From a virus: 46,567 nucleotides of DNA. The first letter of the stretch is position 1; each line of letters opens with the position of its first letter. A model generated the notes under the pieces. The model was not told the origin of the DNA and ran no database searches. It saw nothing but the letters and a program-made list of their open reading frames with translations. Below, piece after piece: positions 2,365 through 25,388 of this stretch. Location of the stretch: the IMG/VR virus record IMGVR_UViG_3300045922_000182, positions 1 to 46,567 of that record; one strand, 5' to 3'. A program made the position numbers and the translations under genes.

Positions 2365-2658
2365 CTACTTATTCTTCATAATGTCATCAATCAAAGCAGC
2401 ATTAGACTGGCAAATGACTTCAATAAGAGAATTGTGAAGAGTTTGTTCAATTCCAGTTATGAACATCATGTGGTGGGTTAATTCATGAAATAAGTAGTAT
2501 CTTCTCCAATATGCATCAAGGTTTTTGGAAATTAAAATTGTCATGGTGTATGGAAGGTACAAAGCCACACAGTAGGGGTCATCTGTTTCTTCTTGAATGA
2601 CTTTAGCATCAACTATTTTAACTTTAACTTTTCTCCCTAAAACAGTCATTGTCTTCAT
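2365..2658 (-). CDS. Small HExxH metallopeptidase-like protein
   Basis: Encodes 97 residues on the minus strand, isolated between plus-strand genes. A perfect ribosome site (AGGAGGG) precedes the ATG. The motif FHELTHHM (H58, E59, H62) is a zinc-binding HExxH signature in a helix following beta-rich sequence, as in ImmA/IrrE-like or SprT-like minimal zincins. A third metal ligand may be E79 in the following helix (SLIEVICQ). It starts divergently from the amidase gene at 2694, sharing a 35-bp intergenic region that probably holds back-to-back expression signals. Substrate unknown; it could be catalytically active or a degenerate fold. Confidence 0.65.
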   Translation of the reverse strand: MKTMTVLGRKVKVKIVDAKVIQEETDDPYCVALYLPYTMTILISKNLDAYWRRYYLFHELTHHMMFITGIEQTLHNSLIEVICQSNAALIDDIMKNK

Positions 2659-2693
2659 AAACCCTCCTGAGATATTATATCTTGAGGGGAGAC

Positions 2694-3125
2694 ATGAGGA
2701 AAATAAAATTCATCGTACTGCATTGCTCGGACAGTGATCGTCTAGCCCATGACAACATTGCGACGATTAGGGAGTGGCATACGCTTCGCGGATTTACAGG
2801 ACCGGATGGGGTTAGTGGTACGCACGATGACGTTGGGTATCATTTTTTCATTCGTAGGGATGGCACAATAGAGGAAGGGAGAAAGGTAGAGGATGTCGGG
2901 GCCCATGTTCAGAACCACAACAAGTTCAGTATTGGCGTTTGTCTGAGCGGAAGGACCTTCGTCGATTTCCATGGTATTCAGTTTACCGCGGCTCGCAAGC
3001 TGGTGCGAGATCTTATTAAAAGATTTAATCTTACGGAACAAGACGTAAAGCTTCACCGACAATTAGACTCAGGTAAGACGTGTCCTAATTTTACGTTGGC
3101 GCAGTTTTGGAAAGAAAACCCCTAG
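2694..3125 (+). CDS. N-acetylmuramoyl-L-alanine amidase (T7 lysozyme-like endolysin)
   Basis: Encodes 143 residues from the ATG at 2694, which has GAGGGG just upstream; the in-frame TTG at 2682 lies within that ribosome site and is rejected. It is an Amidase_2/PGRP fold that cleaves the bond between MurNAc and L-Ala in peptidoglycan. Residues line up with T7 lysozyme: zinc ligands H10, H121 and C130, with catalytic Y49 and K128 (KLHRQLDSGKTCPNF). Its length equals that of T7 lysozyme (about 150). There is no signal peptide, so export would rely on a holin, which I cannot identify with certainty in this window. It is the last plus-strand gene before the convergent region. Confidence 0.9.
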   Translation: MRKIKFIVLHCSDSDRLAHDNIATIREWHTLRGFTGPDGVSGTHDDVGYHFFIRRDGTIEEGRKVEDVGAHVQNHNKFSIGVCLSGRTFVDFHGIQFTAARKLVRDLIKRFNLTEQDVKLHRQLDSGKTCPNFTLAQFWKENP

Positions 3126-3186
3126 GGTGATTTAGGTGTGGGGTGGCACCTAGGAGACACGAGGGGGCTTTGCCTTCCGATCACCC
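3125..3186 (+). ncRNA. Predicted three-way-junction RNA fold after the endolysin gene
   Basis: Beginning at the last base of the amidase stop codon, GGGTGAT (3125-3131) pairs with ATCACCC (3180-3186). Inside lie two further hairpins: TAGGTG/CACCTA (3133-3138 with 3147-3152) and GGGGGC/GCCTTC (3163-3168 with 3172-3177, two G-U pairs). The three helices make a compact junction. There is no T-tract, so it is not a standard terminator; it may be a 3' stabilising structure, a processed RNA, or part of a termination region. Seen by hand folding only. Confidence 0.4.
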
Positions 3187-14548: not shown

Positions 14549-15310
14549 TTATTTTTCTTGTTTAATCAATTCAAGTAGCTTGTCTGCAAATTTAACGCAG
14601 GCCGCAGACCAAGCCTCATACCAAACCTCAGAATCAACCTCAGAATCAGCCGCATACCAGGCCGCAGACCAGGCCGCAGACTCAACCGCAGACCTAGCCG
14701 CAGACCAAACCGCAGAATCAACCGCAGAATCAACCGCAGATTTAGCCGCAAACTCAACTGCAAACCTGGCCGCAGAATCAGCCCCCGACCAAACCGCATA
14801 CCAAGCCGCATACCAGGCCGTAGACCTAGCCGCAGACCAAGCCGCAGAGCCATCTGGCCCACTAGGATATTTTTTGTAAAGATCAATGCAAGTATTTATA
14901 GCTTCAACTACCACGGGATATTTTTTATTGTCAAAATTTTCTAAATTTGATTCTAAAATAAAGATAACAAACGGAGCTTTGACATTGTCTAGATTAGCTC
15001 CGACATTTATAGCTTGGACAAATTCAAGCGGCCATGTTTTCGATCTTTCCAAAGGCAATCCCTCAAAAATAACGTCTTCAACTTTTGCCAGCCATCTAGG
15101 AACACCAAAGTGCTTCTCGTACTGCCCATGATCTTCATAAGAAATCTTAATTTTCTTGAGCCTCGCTACGGATTCTAGTGAGCAACCCACAGCGCAACCC
15201 TTACCGTCTTCAAAGTATTGACCTTTGATAAAATTATCTTGTTCTTGGTGCCATTTTAAAGCATCAATGATCTCTTGTTTTGTCATTGTTGTGTTTACAA
15301 ATGCTCTCAT
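14549..15310 (-). CDS. Early protein with 21 Ala-rich tetrapeptide repeats
   Basis: Encodes 253 residues with a GGGGG ribosome site. Residues 10-120 form a globular domain seen in other phage proteins, with features such as FEDGKGCAVGCSLES, FGVPRWLAKVEDVIFEGLP and WPLEFVQAINVGANLD. Residues 155-238 are 21 tetrapeptides of the type SAAW/SAAR/YAAW/SAVD, alternating small residues with Trp, Arg, Asp or Glu. This should make a long amphipathic helix or solenoid. The final 15 residues are a polar helix. At DNA level this is a 12-bp tandem repeat, so copy number can change easily. Function unknown; it may be a binding scaffold. Confidence 0.75.
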   Translation of the reverse strand: MRAFVNTTMTKQEIIDALKWHQEQDNFIKGQYFEDGKGCAVGCSLESVARLKKIKISYEDHGQYEKHFGVPRWLAKVEDVIFEGLPLERSKTWPLEFVQAINVGANLDNVKAPFVIFILESNLENFDNKKYPVVVEAINTCIDLYKKYPSGPDGSAAWSAARSTAWYAAWYAVWSGADSAARFAVEFAAKSAVDSAVDSAVWSAARSAVESAAWSAAWYAADSEVDSEVWYEAWSAACVKFADKLLELIKQEK

Positions 15311-16678: not shown

Positions 16679-17463
16679 TTTGCCTCCTCTCTCATTAGTC
16701 CTCTGTCATGTTTCTGTGCCGTAGCGGCAATACGGAAAGCTTTTTCGATATCTTTAAAAGTATTGCAGCTTCTTGGCGTTAAATAAACCTCATCACCAGC
16801 AAACCACTTTTCCCACTCTTCTGCGGTTTTTTCTCGGCAACCGATTTTAATAGTCGCAGCAGAGTATTGAACAAGGTGTCGGCTAAGAGAGGGTATAGAT
16901 TTATAACGAACTTTCTGGTCGCCTGCCACAAGCTGATCGCCTCTCACTATCTGGCTGTCTCTCACTACCTGACTGTCTCTCACTATCTGATTTCCCCTCA
17001 CTGTTTGATAACCTCCCACTGTCTGACAACCCACCACTGTCTGATAACCTTCCACTACCTGATAACCTTCCACTGCCTGATAACCTTCCACTACCTGATA
17101 ACCTTTCACTCTCTGTTTGCCCTCCACTACCTGATCGCCTCTCACTATTTGATAGTCTTTCACCGTCTGATTGCCTCCCACTGTCTGACAACCCACCACT
17201 GTCTGATAACCTTCCACTACCTGATAACCTTCCACTCTCTGAGTGCCTCCAACAGTTTGACTACCTTCTACAATCTGATTGCCTCTAACAATCTGGTCGC
17301 CATAAACTATCTCATCGCCTAGCACCACAAGAGTTTTAGGTAAAGATACCTTTAGGTTCCCATCATACGTCGCCCCTTTAATCTCAAAACACCACCCTTT
17401 ATCGACGCAGTCGGACTCTTCAATCTCGTAAGTTTTTATTCCGTTTTCTTCTGTGATTTTCAT
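16675..17463 (-). CDS. Hexapeptide-repeat beta-solenoid protein
   Basis: Encodes 262 residues. Residues 49-186 consist of 23 consecutive hexapeptides of the form G-x-Q-x-V-x (for example GDQIVR, GYQVVE, GCQTVG). The regular Val and Gly spacing predicts a left-handed parallel beta-helix, though no acyltransferase catalytic His loop is seen. The DNA is an 18-bp tandem repeat and includes a larger block duplicated at a 162-bp distance (from 17021 and 17183). The C-terminal 70 residues form a separate domain (CREKTAEEWEKWFAGDEVYL). It may be a binding scaffold or DNA mimic; real function unknown. Confidence 0.75.
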   Translation of the reverse strand: MKITEENGIKTYEIEESDCVDKGWCFEIKGATYDGNLKVSLPKTLVVLGDEIVYGDQIVRGNQIVEGSQTVGGTQRVEGYQVVEGYQTVVGCQTVGGNQTVKDYQIVRGDQVVEGKQRVKGYQVVEGYQAVEGYQVVEGYQTVVGCQTVGGYQTVRGNQIVRDSQVVRDSQIVRGDQLVAGDQKVRYKSIPSLSRHLVQYSAATIKIGCREKTAEEWEKWFAGDEVYLTPRSCNTFKDIEKAFRIAATAQKHDRGLMREEAK

Positions 17464-20932: not shown

Positions 20933-20977
20933 TTGTTCCTCCAATGGTTAATGCGGTTAATGCTTGTCGGTAATATA

Positions 20978-21433
20978 TTATAAAAGATTAGCGTCTACAA
21001 GTTTTTTCATATCTTCGATTTTTTTCAAAGTCATGAAAGCTTTAAAGTCGTCGAAGCTTTTAATTGTGTAAAATTTTGCTCGTGACATAACTCCGGCGGC
21101 TTCAAGGATTTTCATCGTGGCAGTTTTTCTTTTCTTTTCTGCGTCTTTAATTTTTAGATATAATTCGACATCGGTTGTGTCTACTTCGACGTCTTCGATT
21201 GTGACTAACGTGGGTTGGACAAGCTCTTTCAGCTTATCAGTCTCGCGCAGTATGGCTAAAAAGTCGCTTAGTGTAAGTTTTTTGTACTTACCTTCGCGAA
21301 GTGCTTCGATGGTTCTAATTTTATAGTCTCCAGTTCCAGCGAGGATTGTGTACAGTCTTTCGTCGCTGAGCTGAGCGCAGGCGTCTTGTAAGATGCTTTC
21401 GATTTTCTGTTGTTGTTGGTTCAGTGAATCCAT
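20978..21433 (-). CDS. Helical early protein of unknown function
   Basis: Encodes 151 residues with a GGGAGG ribosome site. The first 90 residues include a possible DNA-binding-like helical region (IRTIEALREGKYKKLTLSDF). A charged hinge rich in D, V and T (VTIEDVEVDTTDVELYLK) and a basic C-terminal helix follow. No motif recognised. Confidence 0.6.
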   Translation of the reverse strand: MDSLNQQQQKIESILQDACAQLSDERLYTILAGTGDYKIRTIEALREGKYKKLTLSDFLAILRETDKLKELVQPTLVTIEDVEVDTTDVELYLKIKDAEKKRKTATMKILEAAGVMSRAKFYTIKSFDDFKAFMTLKKIEDMKKLVDANLL

Positions 21434-22301: not shown

Positions 22302-22324
22302 TTTTGACCTCACTTTCGTCAATC

Positions 22325-22518
22325 TTAGCTTTTTCAGTTAATTTTGCAAGAAAAAAATCAAATTTTTTCTTTTATTATTAATTAATATGTTAACTTTTTT
22401 GTGCTTTTTTCACCTCAAAAAACCTAAATAAAAAACGCTTTAAAAAAGTGAGGGGAAAACACTTTCCACTTTTTCTTTTGAGATTAACTTTTTTCGATTA
22501 ATTTTGCAAGAAAAAAAT
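22325..22518. repeat. Two AT-rich direct repeats 160 bp apart
   Basis: A 21-bp identical block (22338-22358 and 22498-22518, core TTTTGCAAGAAAAAAAT) is preceded in both places by a similar TTAGC/TTAAC-TTTTT stretch. This gives roughly 34 bp of matching sequence (about 22325-22358 and 22484-22518). Such repeats in an AT-rich block could be iteron-like protein-binding sites or duplicated promoter elements. Confidence 0.6.
22443..22474. terminator. Hairpin flanked by A and T runs, terminator-like
   Basis: AAAAAGTG (22443-22450) pairs with CACTTTTT (22467-22474), and inside it GAAA/TTTC closes an ACAC loop. An A-run on one side and TTTTTCTTTT on the other make it resemble an intrinsic terminator readable on the plus strand. 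It lies between the two AT-rich direct repeats, far from any plus-strand gene end, so it may end a short regulatory RNA or insulate the two operons. Confidence 0.4.
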
Positions 22519-22970
22519 TTTTTGTTTTTTTAATTTTTTTGTAGCGATTTTTTAAATATGCTAAGTTGTTAAAAATTAAAAAATTTTTTTATTATCTAAT
22601 ATTATATTTTTTATATATATAAATATAAAAGTCTTTATGTCGTAATGTAAGGAAATGTAAGAAATAAAACATAGGCCCTTTATAAAGTTTTTTCCCCGAC
22701 TTTCAAAAAATTGCTTAATCTGTTATAAATGTACGTAACTTTTCCGTAGCTCATTAATACATTAAACACAAGCTTTTTGCGCCGTTACAACGTATTGAGT
22801 CATAAAAACTAAACGCGCTAAGTCAAACCCTTCGGGCAATGTTGAGGCAGCGCGAGCGCGCCGACTGAACGCTCCGCGACATAACTTCGATGAATTTATC
22901 TCATGGTGCGTTATGACTTGTCTTAACTTAGTACTATTGAAAAGACTTCACGCCGCTCCGCCTCAGCGTC

Positions 22971-23082
22971 GGCGAGCTCGTTCAGCCGGCGAGCTCGTTC
23001 AGCCGCGAAGCCGGTCAGCCGGCGAGCTCGTTCAGCCGCGAAGCCGGTCAGCCGGCGAGCTCGTTCAGCCGCGAAGCCGGTC
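22971..23082. repeat. GC-rich 33-bp tandem repeats
   Basis: The core GGCGAGCTCGTTCAGCC recurs at 22971, 22988, 23021 and 23054. The last three copies have a 33-bp period and share GCGAAGCCGGT after the core. The block is much richer in G and C than its surroundings. A similar sequence in inverse orientation (GACTGAACGCTC) occurs upstream at about 22863. A frame through the block would encode repeated RSAGELVQPRS, but it lacks a ribosome site. By position it may be the TerS/pac binding array or an origin element. Confidence 0.75.
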
Positions 23083-23136
23083 CCCCTTTCAGCCGTCGAG
23101 CCGCGGGGGGTATACCACCCCGGCAGAAAAATATAT

Positions 23137-23231
23137 CATTCCGGCAGGGAGGTACTATAATATATTATATCATTCCGGCAGGGAGGTACTATAATATATT
23201 ATATCATTCCGGCAGGGAGGTACTATAATAT
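23137..23231 (+). repeat. Three 34-bp tandem leader repeats before the small terminase gene
   Basis: Units start at 23137, 23171 and 23205, with an exact period of 34. Each contains CCGGCAGGGAGGTACTATAA, that is a GGGAGG ribosome-site-like block followed by a TATAAT-like box. The last unit runs into the terminase ATG at 23230 and supplies its real ribosome site. At each junction between units the sequence TATAATATATTATA is a perfect 14-bp palindrome. A degenerate fourth CCGGCAG lies at about 23119. It looks like an amplified leader or a protein-binding array. Confidence 0.8.
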
Positions 23232-23847
23232 GCCACGACACCCCCCTACCCCTCTAAAAAATTTGACAACACCGCCCACAGCGATTGAGAATGGCAGTAT
23301 GGGGCTATCGAAGCAGAAGCAATTATTTGTTGAGGCCTTCGATGGGGATGAAGTATACGCGATGAGAGTCGCTGGCTATACCGGAGCCGACAACTATCTA
23401 AAACGTAAAGCTGAAGACCTATTAAAGGATCCAACCGTTCAAGAAGCACTTCGCAAACGCGACAACTTCCGCACGTCCACAAACAAAATCATCGCCGATA
23501 GACAAGAACGACAAGCACTATGGACCGCCATCATGCGAAACACCGACCCCCACTATAAAGAAGAGCTTGATGAAAACGGTATACCAAAAGCTCAAGGCAA
23601 CATACCCCTACAAACGCGTTTAAAAGCCTCCGAGCTTCTAGGCAAGTCAGAGGCCGACTTCATCGAGAAAATCGATATAAACGCAAATGTGACGATCACA
23701 GACCTAATACAGCAGTCCTACCTAACATCAGACGATGACATCGATGCCATCGAAGCAGAATACCACGCCATTAAAGACAAACGCGCCTTAGTTGACTCAA
23801 TCCCTCTGAAAGAAGAAAAACCCATTGACATCGACGATTTTGTATGA
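23230..23847 (+). CDS. Terminase small subunit
   Basis: Encodes 205 residues. Region 25-75 (LSKQKQLFVEAFDGDEVYAM, AGYTGADNYLKRKAEDLLKD, PTVQEALRKR) has the helix-turn-helix pattern of Terminase_2 family small subunits. The later segment NIPLQTRLKASELLGKSEAD is also typical. The C-terminus is acidic (EEKPIDIDDFV) and probably contacts TerL. The protein recognises the phage packaging site, which may be the repeat arrays just upstream. It overlaps the TerL start by 4 bases (ATGA). The ribosome site lies in the third 34-bp repeat. Confidence 0.85.
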   Translation: MPRHPPTPLKNLTTPPTAIENGSMGLSKQKQLFVEAFDGDEVYAMRVAGYTGADNYLKRKAEDLLKDPTVQEALRKRDNFRTSTNKIIADRQERQALWTAIMRNTDPHYKEELDENGIPKAQGNIPLQTRLKASELLGKSEADFIEKIDINANVTITDLIQQSYLTSDDDIDAIEAEYHAIKDKRALVDSIPLKEEKPIDIDDFV

Positions 23848-25388
23848 CTAACGTGCAACGGCTACTTAACAAGCCTTCAACACTCCAACCACATCAACTC
23901 ATAAAACTCTGGCGACACAGACCCAAAATCTTTTTTAAAGATGCCTTTGATGTAACACTCGATGCGTGGCAAGAAGATGTTGTTGACCTCTACATGGAGA
24001 ACAATCGTCTCGCCCTTGTGGCGTCAAAAGGACCTGGGAAAACTTTTACTCTCGCTATGCTCGGATGGCACTTCTTTATTACAAACCATCAACCAAAGAT
24101 GGCAGCAACATCGATTACTAAAGATCACTTGATGGCAAACCTTTGGGCAGAACTTTTGAAGTGGCGGGCAAAGTCACGACTCTTAACTCTTTCAACCAAT
24201 GAAGGTTTCTCTAAGATTACGCTTAAAGGGCATGAAGGGTATTCATTCATAGACGCTCGATCATTTTCAAAGTCGGCAGATGAGAAGGCGCAACAGTCCG
24301 CCCTTGCGGGTTTGCACGCGGATAACGTGGCGTTCTTGATTGACGAAGCGGGGATGATTCCTGATGCGGTTTTGATTACTGCGGACGCAGCTCTTTCGAC
24401 TGGTGATTCTGCCACTAAGAAGGCAAAGCTTCTTGTGACAGCTAACCCAGAAGAGCCAAAAGGATTGATATACAACGCTTATATGGGGCGGTCAGTTCAG
24501 AAATGGGCAGTCTACACAATTTCAGGCGATCCTGATGATCCTAAACGTGCTCCACGTGTTGATATTAAATGGGCGAGAGAAGTCATTGCACAATTCGGTA
24601 AGGACTCACCGTATGCACTAGTAAACGTATTCGGTAAATATCCTGCGACATCATCCAACATGCTAATATCGGAGCAGGAAGTTCGAGATGCAATGAGTAG
24701 AACTATTGATGATAACTTGCTTAAAAACTTTCAAATGCGTTTAGGCATTGATGTCGCTCGCGGCGGTATTGACTCTACAGTGTTTTTTCTTCGGAGAGGT
24801 AAGAAGGCGTATCCGCCGGAACAAATACCTTCGAATGTGTTAGGTCCTGAACTTGCAGGTAAAGCGGCAATGATGGTTCAGGATTTAAAGGTGGAGCGCA
24901 TATTCGTAGACAACACAGGCGGGTTTGGTGGTTCGGTGGTGGATAGTCTTCAACTATTTCCAAACATTGATGTGACACCTGTTCATTACAATTCTAAGGC
25001 GCAGGACAAGCGTTACTACAATAAGCGTACTGAGATGTGGGTGAGGATGCGTGATTGGATTCGTGATGGTGGGTGTTTGCCTAACGACCCGGCACTTGCA
25101 GAAGAGCTTACGACTCCGCGTCTGCAATTTCATGGTGGTATGTTTAGGCTAGAAGAGAAAGAGCAGATTAAGCAAAGGTTGGGGCGGTCTCCGGACAAAG
25201 CCGACGCGTTGGCTCAGACATTTGCGGACGTTGAGCAGCCTAGTTTTTATGCGGAGTATGAGGAGCGGATAGCGGAGTTTGGGGACCCGTTGGAGTATTA
25301 TCGGCAGAAAAGTCAAGCTCGAAATTATTACTCAGATGAATCTCAGGTTGACAAATTTTATTATTCGCCGCCTAATTATAAGGCATAG
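23844..25388 (+). CDS. Terminase large subunit, packaging ATPase-nuclease
   Basis: Encodes 514 residues. The ATPase domain has Walker A SKGPGKT at 61-67 (LVASKGPGKTFTL) and Walker B FLIDEAG with D167-E168. The RNase H-like nuclease domain has D303 (RLGIDVARGGIDS), D356 (IFVDNTGGFG), and D451/D454 (RSPDKADAL). The protein pumps DNA into the prohead through the portal and cuts concatemers. Length and motif order are standard. The gene is coupled to TerS and is followed by small head genes. Confidence 0.94.
   Translation: MTNVQRLLNKPSTLQPHQLIKLWRHRPKIFFKDAFDVTLDAWQEDVVDLYMENNRLALVASKGPGKTFTLAMLGWHFFITNHQPKMAATSITKDHLMANLWAELLKWRAKSRLLTLSTNEGFSKITLKGHEGYSFIDARSFSKSADEKAQQSALAGLHADNVAFLIDEAGMIPDAVLITADAALSTGDSATKKAKLLVTANPEEPKGLIYNAYMGRSVQKWAVYTISGDPDDPKRAPRVDIKWAREVIAQFGKDSPYALVNVFGKYPATSSNMLISEQEVRDAMSRTIDDNLLKNFQMRLGIDVARGGIDSTVFFLRRGKKAYPPEQIPSNVLGPELAGKAAMMVQDLKVERIFVDNTGGFGGSVVDSLQLFPNIDVTPVHYNSKAQDKRYYNKRTEMWVRMRDWIRDGGCLPNDPALAEELTTPRLQFHGGMFRLEEKEQIKQRLGRSPDKADALAQTFADVEQPSFYAEYEERIAEFGDPLEYYRQKSQARNYYSDESQVDKFYYSPPNYKA

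Follow-up and report, generated by a model that had tools for sequence, protein, structure and literature searches.

The window, by which we mean the whole stretch of DNA analysed, is a 46.6-kb virus record (46,567 nt) whose early-region open frames lie on the minus strand, up to position 22322. Its plus-strand cluster begins with the small terminase gene terS, which is followed by the large terminase gene terL. Three 34-bp units sit in the non-coding gap that separates these divergent early (minus) and late (plus) clusters, together with the other features listed in Table 1. A close relative of the window, L002 (IMGVR_UViG_3300045921_000138), was compared with it over the first 20.0 of 20.7 kb and shows 98.8-99.9% identity across three long aligned blocks. 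A phage collection searched with the DNA from 22400 to 24200 of the window gave no match, and the nearest named phages are the Xanthomonas phages SAC and Olaya (TerL about 41%). In bacterial genomes, a TerL-based pattern matched 78 stretches, of which 0 were confirmed as relatives.

Table 1. Features of the window in and around the gap upstream of terS
Feature	Position	Strand	Remarks
GC-rich 33-bp tandem array, 3.1 copies	22982..23082		directly before conserved element
Left half of element, CCCCCTTT	23082..23089	+	CCCCCTTT in 14/19 loci
Core, TATACCACCCCG	23111..23122	+	candidate packaging cleavage region (cosN/pacC-like)
Array of three 34-bp units	23132..23231		34-nt period exact over this range
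Box 1, TACTATAATA	23153..23162		+42 from core
Junction palindrome TATAATATATTATA, 14 bp	23156..23169		exact
Box 2, TACTATAATA	23187..23196		+76 from core
Junction palindrome TATAATATATTATA, 14 bp	23190..23203		exact
Box 3, TACTATAATA	23221..23230		+110 from core
Likely terS promoter, sigma70-like TTGACA-18-GAGAAT	23263..23292	+	6 nt before ATG 23299, downstream of repeats
terS	23299..23847	+	182 aa, SF6/SPP1-type small terminase; likely start ATG 23299
terL, large terminase	23844..25388	+

The 34-nt units are arranged head to tail (23132-23165, 23166-23199 and 23200-23233; identity 100/100/94%), with the first two identical and the third differing from them at 2/34 positions. The first-pass annotation had described three such units with exact periodicity, perfect 14-bp palindromes at their junctions and a ribosome-site-like and a TATAAT-like box in each. 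All of this is borne out, with an extent slightly wider than the 23137-23231 given there; AGGGAGG and TATAAT are present in every unit. An exact array of 100 nt is far beyond chance. Allowing two mismatches, TATAATATATTATA has three matches in the window where 0.12 would be expected, and the CCGGCAGGGAGG of the unit occurs exactly in the three units and nowhere else in the window. One two-mismatch copy of the junction palindrome is found at 20969-20982, partly inside a gap that separates two minus-strand ORFs and partly next to it. When a 21-nt piece of the unit was searched in viral contigs, it matched L002 only. That contig starts within the array, and its count of at least four units is therefore a lower bound.

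To place the array in context, sequences around terS were collected in locus searches that contributed 33 loci from one search and 80 of 93 from another. Forty sequences were compared, leaving out L008-L010, L015, L018, L020, L026, L029, L031-L036, L074, L078-L082, L085-L118 and re-fetched copies. A set of 19 anchored loci was then defined without near-identical copies, namely L014 and L022 (of L006), L023 (of L019), L028 and L037 (of L021), L058 (of L057), L060 (of L059) and L061 (a shorter L062 that begins after the core). This set is also without contigs whose sequence starts only downstream of the core (L002, L004, L005, L007 and L024), without L025, which has no element, and without poor TerS matches (L070, L071, L075, L076, L083, L084 (none) and L077 (29%)). 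L068 belongs to the anchored set and stands outside the TerS alignment, and its TerS start enters none of the distances given here; L024, conversely, is in the TerS alignment and outside the anchored set.

Judged from these loci, a conserved element composed of a C run, about 20 nt and a TATACC-type core is present upstream of terS. The C run starts 23-31 nt before the core in all 19 loci, and the core, which shows some dyad symmetry, is of the TATACC type in 10 and of the TATACCCACCCC type in six. A strict pattern of the element retrieved 10 stretches from 2.9 million viral contigs, all of them in contigs of the window's terminase group. A similar pattern found 15 stretches in bacterial genome contigs, none with a TerS match and with best element scores of no more than 13.9.

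Anchors were placed by eye in eight divergent loci (L012, L013, L016, L017, L057, L059, L062 and L064), and a weight matrix was trained on the other 11. With this matrix, 12 clear members reach at least 38, and the anchors of L057 (38) and of L016 (24, one base off) are supported. Its scores are no better than chance for L012 (12.9), L064 (10.5, three off) and L062 (8.1), and fall below zero for L013, L017 and L059, the first two far below. These six hand-placed anchors are weakly supported, and the main box count given below therefore rests on 13 clear loci, the 11 used for training plus L016 and L057.

New element-bearing loci were sought by TerS alignment among 80 of 153 relatives, and no score above 8.6 was obtained for the 51 that were new (L173-L223). 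The element was likewise not found by matrix in L025 or among the more distant terminases of L075-L118 (without L078, which is L027's contig; scores at most 12.0), and absence by matrix is not firm, as the matrix also misses L013, L017 and L059. The 48.2-kb record behind L018 showed no element in its two ends (8.2 kb). In SAC and Olaya, genes are packed upstream of terL and the element is absent from the stretches examined (6.0 and 7.3 kb), and the ends of Pseudomonas phage AF, inspected by eye, contain no similar motif.

Each 34-bp unit of the window carries one box, a 10-bp palindrome with the shared letters TAnTnnAnTA, which more than half of the clear loci have at a constant distance from the core. 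In eight of the 13 clear loci (the window, L003, L006, L011, L027, L030, L038 and L055) a box begins between +42 and +45 relative to the core, with an SD of 0.9 nt, while the distance from box to TerS in the same eight loci ranges from 114 to 558 nt (SD 161). For comparison, a 5-nt position is shared by at most one of the 13 clear loci in five control 140-nt zones and by at most three in 500 dinucleotide shuffles. When all 19 loci are considered, a box is present at 42-46 nt in 10 (L013 and L017 being added), as against no more than two in controls and four in shuffles. Five of the 13 clear loci, and nine of the 19 overall, have no box at that position.

The +30..+170 zones of the 19 loci together contain 27 boxes (dinucleotide shuffles: mean 3.4, maximum 10), and because the motif was derived from the loci on which it was counted, such counts are partly circular. 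In eight loci held apart from the motif reading, three box matches were found versus 0.64 expected. Palindromicity across the 19 loci peaks at +49-50 with 4.16/6, a value reached by 0/500 shuffles (mean 3.29, maximum 3.68).

The first-pass annotation had named the repeat count in relatives as a check on its proposal, and this count can be answered for boxes: relatives having boxes carry from one to five. Between +30 and +160 there is a single box in L003, L006, L011, L013 and L038, two in L017 and L021, three in L055 as in the window, four in L030 and five in L027. The two boxes of L021 lie at +60 and +98, and the single box of L057 at +156. No box is present in the +30..+160 zone of L012, L016, L019, L059, L062, L064 or L068. 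Boxes recur inside arrays of differing unit sequence. As a separate observation, closely similar boxes occur seven times across the intergenic region of L017 (2125-3034), six of them upstream of its weakly supported core.

The array had originally been taken for the leader of terS, with its last copy supplying the ribosome site and a start at ATG 23230. Alignment of TerS proteins likely corrects that start to ATG 23299, which is 69 nt further downstream. Among 19 aligned TerS (full sequences for 18, and L038 by its N-terminus alone), the conserved N-terminal stretch coincides with the start of the protein or sits at most 10 residues further in than in the window's MGLSKQKQLF. Initiation at ATG 23230 would add 23 residues that are found in 0/19 of these proteins. 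L025 and L068, which are not among the aligned proteins, have frames that could begin at a Met further upstream, by about 23 and 17 residues respectively, and differ there in sequence. Moreover, L002 has one base fewer in a C run, so that the ATG following its last unit is shifted to another frame and reads MPRHPLPL followed by a stop. At the position corresponding to the ATG, copies 1 and 2 are followed by ATA.

A predicted sigma70-like promoter lies between the array and ATG 23299, and it has counterparts in the relatives. Over the 70 nt leading up to terS (in five loci, up to an inserted gene that precedes it), the 19 loci have a mean best score of 9.2/12 versus 7.4 in shuffles (sd 0.18), with 0/300 shuffles as high. 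Because this promoter follows the repeats, the array is probably not part of the terS leader and would instead lie upstream of the promoter. The idea of stacked ribosome decoys fares no better, given that GGAGG occurs within 20 nt before the box in the window only (1/10 box loci) and that no ATG follows units 1 and 2. As for stacked promoter boxes, a weak match (ATATCA-17-TATAAT, 9/12) does occur inside the array, and TATAAT lies within the box in five of the 10 loci.

The best −10-like hexamer was also seen to end 6-7 nt before the first start codon in 8/19 loci (the window at 23287-23299, L012, L016, L019, L021, L030, L059 and L062). This gap suggests that the message may be nearly leaderless in those eight loci.

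Comparison of the window's TerS with known proteins points to the SF6/SPP1 type. By profile it corresponds to the small terminase of SF6 (3zqp, E 3.4e-11). The best fold match of a predicted model (mean pLDDT 76.6, about 95 at the N-terminus; pTM 0.41) is 3zqq (E 2.3e-5), and the model also aligns with the SF6 DNA-binding domain 4zc3 at a TM of 0.81 by target, though with an E of 0.2. At SPP1/SF6-type pac sites, terminase makes its initial cleavage at the site and packaging proceeds by the headful mechanism; lambda-type cos sites are cut at cosN to give 12-base 5′ cohesive ends.

The window resembles the first of these arrangements in several respects. A small terminase of the G1P family, as judged by profile and N-terminal fold, is encoded alongside, and direct repeats lie near the start of its gene, in the window ahead of the predicted promoter. 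SPP1 and SF6 likewise have direct repeats close to where their small terminase gene and its promoter begin, and these repeats vary between close phages. SF6 lacks SPP1's boxA repeats and has another pair, and SF6 TerS is able to replace SPP1 TerS (PMC4737164). The differences are that no part of the window's tripled unit reaches the predicted terS promoter, which follows it, that the unit carries a 10-bp palindrome at a fixed distance from a TATACC-type core, and that the window's head-tail adaptor is of phrog_332.

The layout is also similar to that of lambda/N15 cos, where a left motif lies roughly 28 nt before the core, TerS-site-like boxes start roughly 45-50 nt after it, the boxes number one to three or more, and terS is next. 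For the box distance we take the lambda repeat in question to be R3. No sequence relation is claimed, the TerS of the window being SF6-type by profile, and the spacing between boxes differs. Lambda cosB contains three TerS sites and N15 a single critical site at about the same place (PMC4669245).

The adjacency of terS, the dyad symmetry of the core, the fixed distance of a variable number of boxes and the SF6/SPP1-type TerS lead us to prefer, tentatively and at somewhat short of even confidence, a reading in which the element is a packaging-initiation region laid out as in SPP1 pac or lambda cos. We take the tripled unit to be a lineage-specific tandem expansion of a conserved palindromic cis-site, the TAnTnnAnTA box, which forms the right part of the cis-element upstream of terS; it is the first box of the region that would have been expanded. 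According to the packaging reading, the core would be the cleavage region. The boxes may serve as docking or bending sites where a small-terminase ring, perhaps helped by a host protein that bends DNA, assembles ahead of cutting by the large terminase. Further copies would provide a larger or more stable docking platform. Slippage or unequal recombination would generate them, as is suggested by the differing copy number of near-identical genomes. The suggestion in the first-pass annotation that the repeats bind TerS ahead of the packaging genes fits the position and architecture of the array, a putative TerS site. Against it, the sequences of 11 boxes do not co-vary with the N-terminal domain of TerS (r 0.00, Mantel p 0.49), and their correlation with the rest of TerS is r 0.27. 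The packaging reading is further weakened by the five clear loci (nine of all 19) that have no box at the fixed position, by the failure to find the element beside more distant terminases, in L025 or in the L018 ends, by the boxes upstream of the core in L017, L011, L013 and G013, and by the little preference of the isolated SF6 DNA-binding domain for the repeats (PMC4737164).

Repeated sites beside terS are already known; this case is marked by the fixed-spacing signature and the variation in copy number between near-identical genomes. Among the papers listed in literature searches on packaging-site repeats, on csrA in phages and on leaderless genes of phages, no description of the element was seen. 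The findings bear on how small terminases recognise their own genomes, a question on which one study reports that the isolated SF6 DNA-binding domain shows little preference for, and does not specifically bind, the repeats near terS (PMC4737164). With a fixed core-box spacing and one to five boxes, this group of uncultured phages offers a natural series for testing repeat number.

A bolder version of the packaging reading, which we regard as unlikely, holds that a TATACC-type core and a palindromic box at a fixed 44-nt spacing form an undescribed packaging-initiation signal, that the box array grows and shrinks by tandem duplication, and that packaging is tuned by the number of sites and not by their sequence. 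Recognition of the boxes would depend not on the recognition helix of TerS but on some other partner, such as a DNA-bending protein, or on DNA shape.

The main rival to a packaging function, possible though on balance somewhat unlikely, is that a transcription regulator, of the phage or its host, uses the boxes as operators between the divergent clusters, with tandem units permitting cooperative binding. In favour of this are the form of the box, a 10-bp palindrome with constant TA-T--A-TA, its location in the region that divides the two clusters, and the sigma70-like promoter signal before the first gene. Looser-form boxes are also spread across the intergenic region upstream of the core in L017, L011, L013 and G013. 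TTAYTNNARTAA occurs at three places in the window, all away from the core and none beside it, at two places in G002, neither being the box beside the core, and at one place elsewhere in G007. Against this, the distance of the box is constant to the core and not to the terS start. Furthermore, TTAYTNNARTAA is found exclusively beside the core in G006 (3/3, 48.6 kb) and G012 (5/5, over 40 kb), though the looser TTANTNNANTAA occurs at one further place in G006. It is absent from G003, G008, G010 and G013; the counts cover 40 kb each of G003, G007, G008, G012 and G013. The outcome of the anchor matrix check makes the operator reading slightly stronger and the packaging reading slightly weaker.

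Neutral slippage in an AT-rich, repeat-prone spacer without function is, in our estimation, improbable. The gap is the genome's most repeat-rich non-coding stretch, and the unrelated 33-bp array lies directly upstream in the window. Local repeats are present within 250 nt before the core in 13/19 loci (the window and 12 of the 18 others, where the short repeats are by eye unrelated in sequence) and within 250 nt after it in 7/19. The identity of units 1 and 2 and the small divergence of unit 3 imply a recent expansion, and the unit count differs in the near-identical contig L002. Such a process accounts for copy number and not for the site: the position of the first box is fixed in the eight clear loci despite differing spacers, and boxes recur in arrays of different unit sequence. 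Apart from this argument, we note that tandem arrays within 250 nt upstream of the core are found in the window (22982-23082), L016, L019, L038 and L055, with periods of 33, 28, 8, 14 and 17 nt.

A replication origin with iteron-like boxes is very improbable: repeats after the core are spaced 33-38 bp in the window, L003, L021, L055 and L064, the boxes are AT-rich, and the GC-skew minimum at 24128 lies about 1 kb from the array, but the skew is equally explained by divergent transcription and the spacing is 51 in L016 and 26/48 in L027. Equally hard to credit is the original proposal of a leader in which decoys for ribosome binding or promoters are stacked. Each unit does offer an SD-like AGGGAGG and a perfect TATAAT, but both the likely terS start and the predicted promoter lie downstream of the array.

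Several further features were observed in the window and its relatives. Two minus-strand ORFs of the window, neither with a Pfam match, contain tandem arrays at 14598-14848 and 16941-17295 with periods that are multiples of three. The large terminase of L021 and L028 is interrupted, by eye, by an apparent intein around the terL start. The candidate element of L012 is separated from terS by an HNH/NUMOD4 endonuclease gene (2602-3159), and its core is altered in the right half, which might be a consequence of a homing insertion. A CsrA-family gene (Pfam PF02599) is located between the element and terS in L006 (375-593) and L055 (2712-2912), and a similar ORF was recognised by eye in L038. The leader in L006 contains ACAAGGATGT, which we take to resemble the CsrA target consensus, and this suggests that the CsrA-family gene of L006 may be autoregulated.
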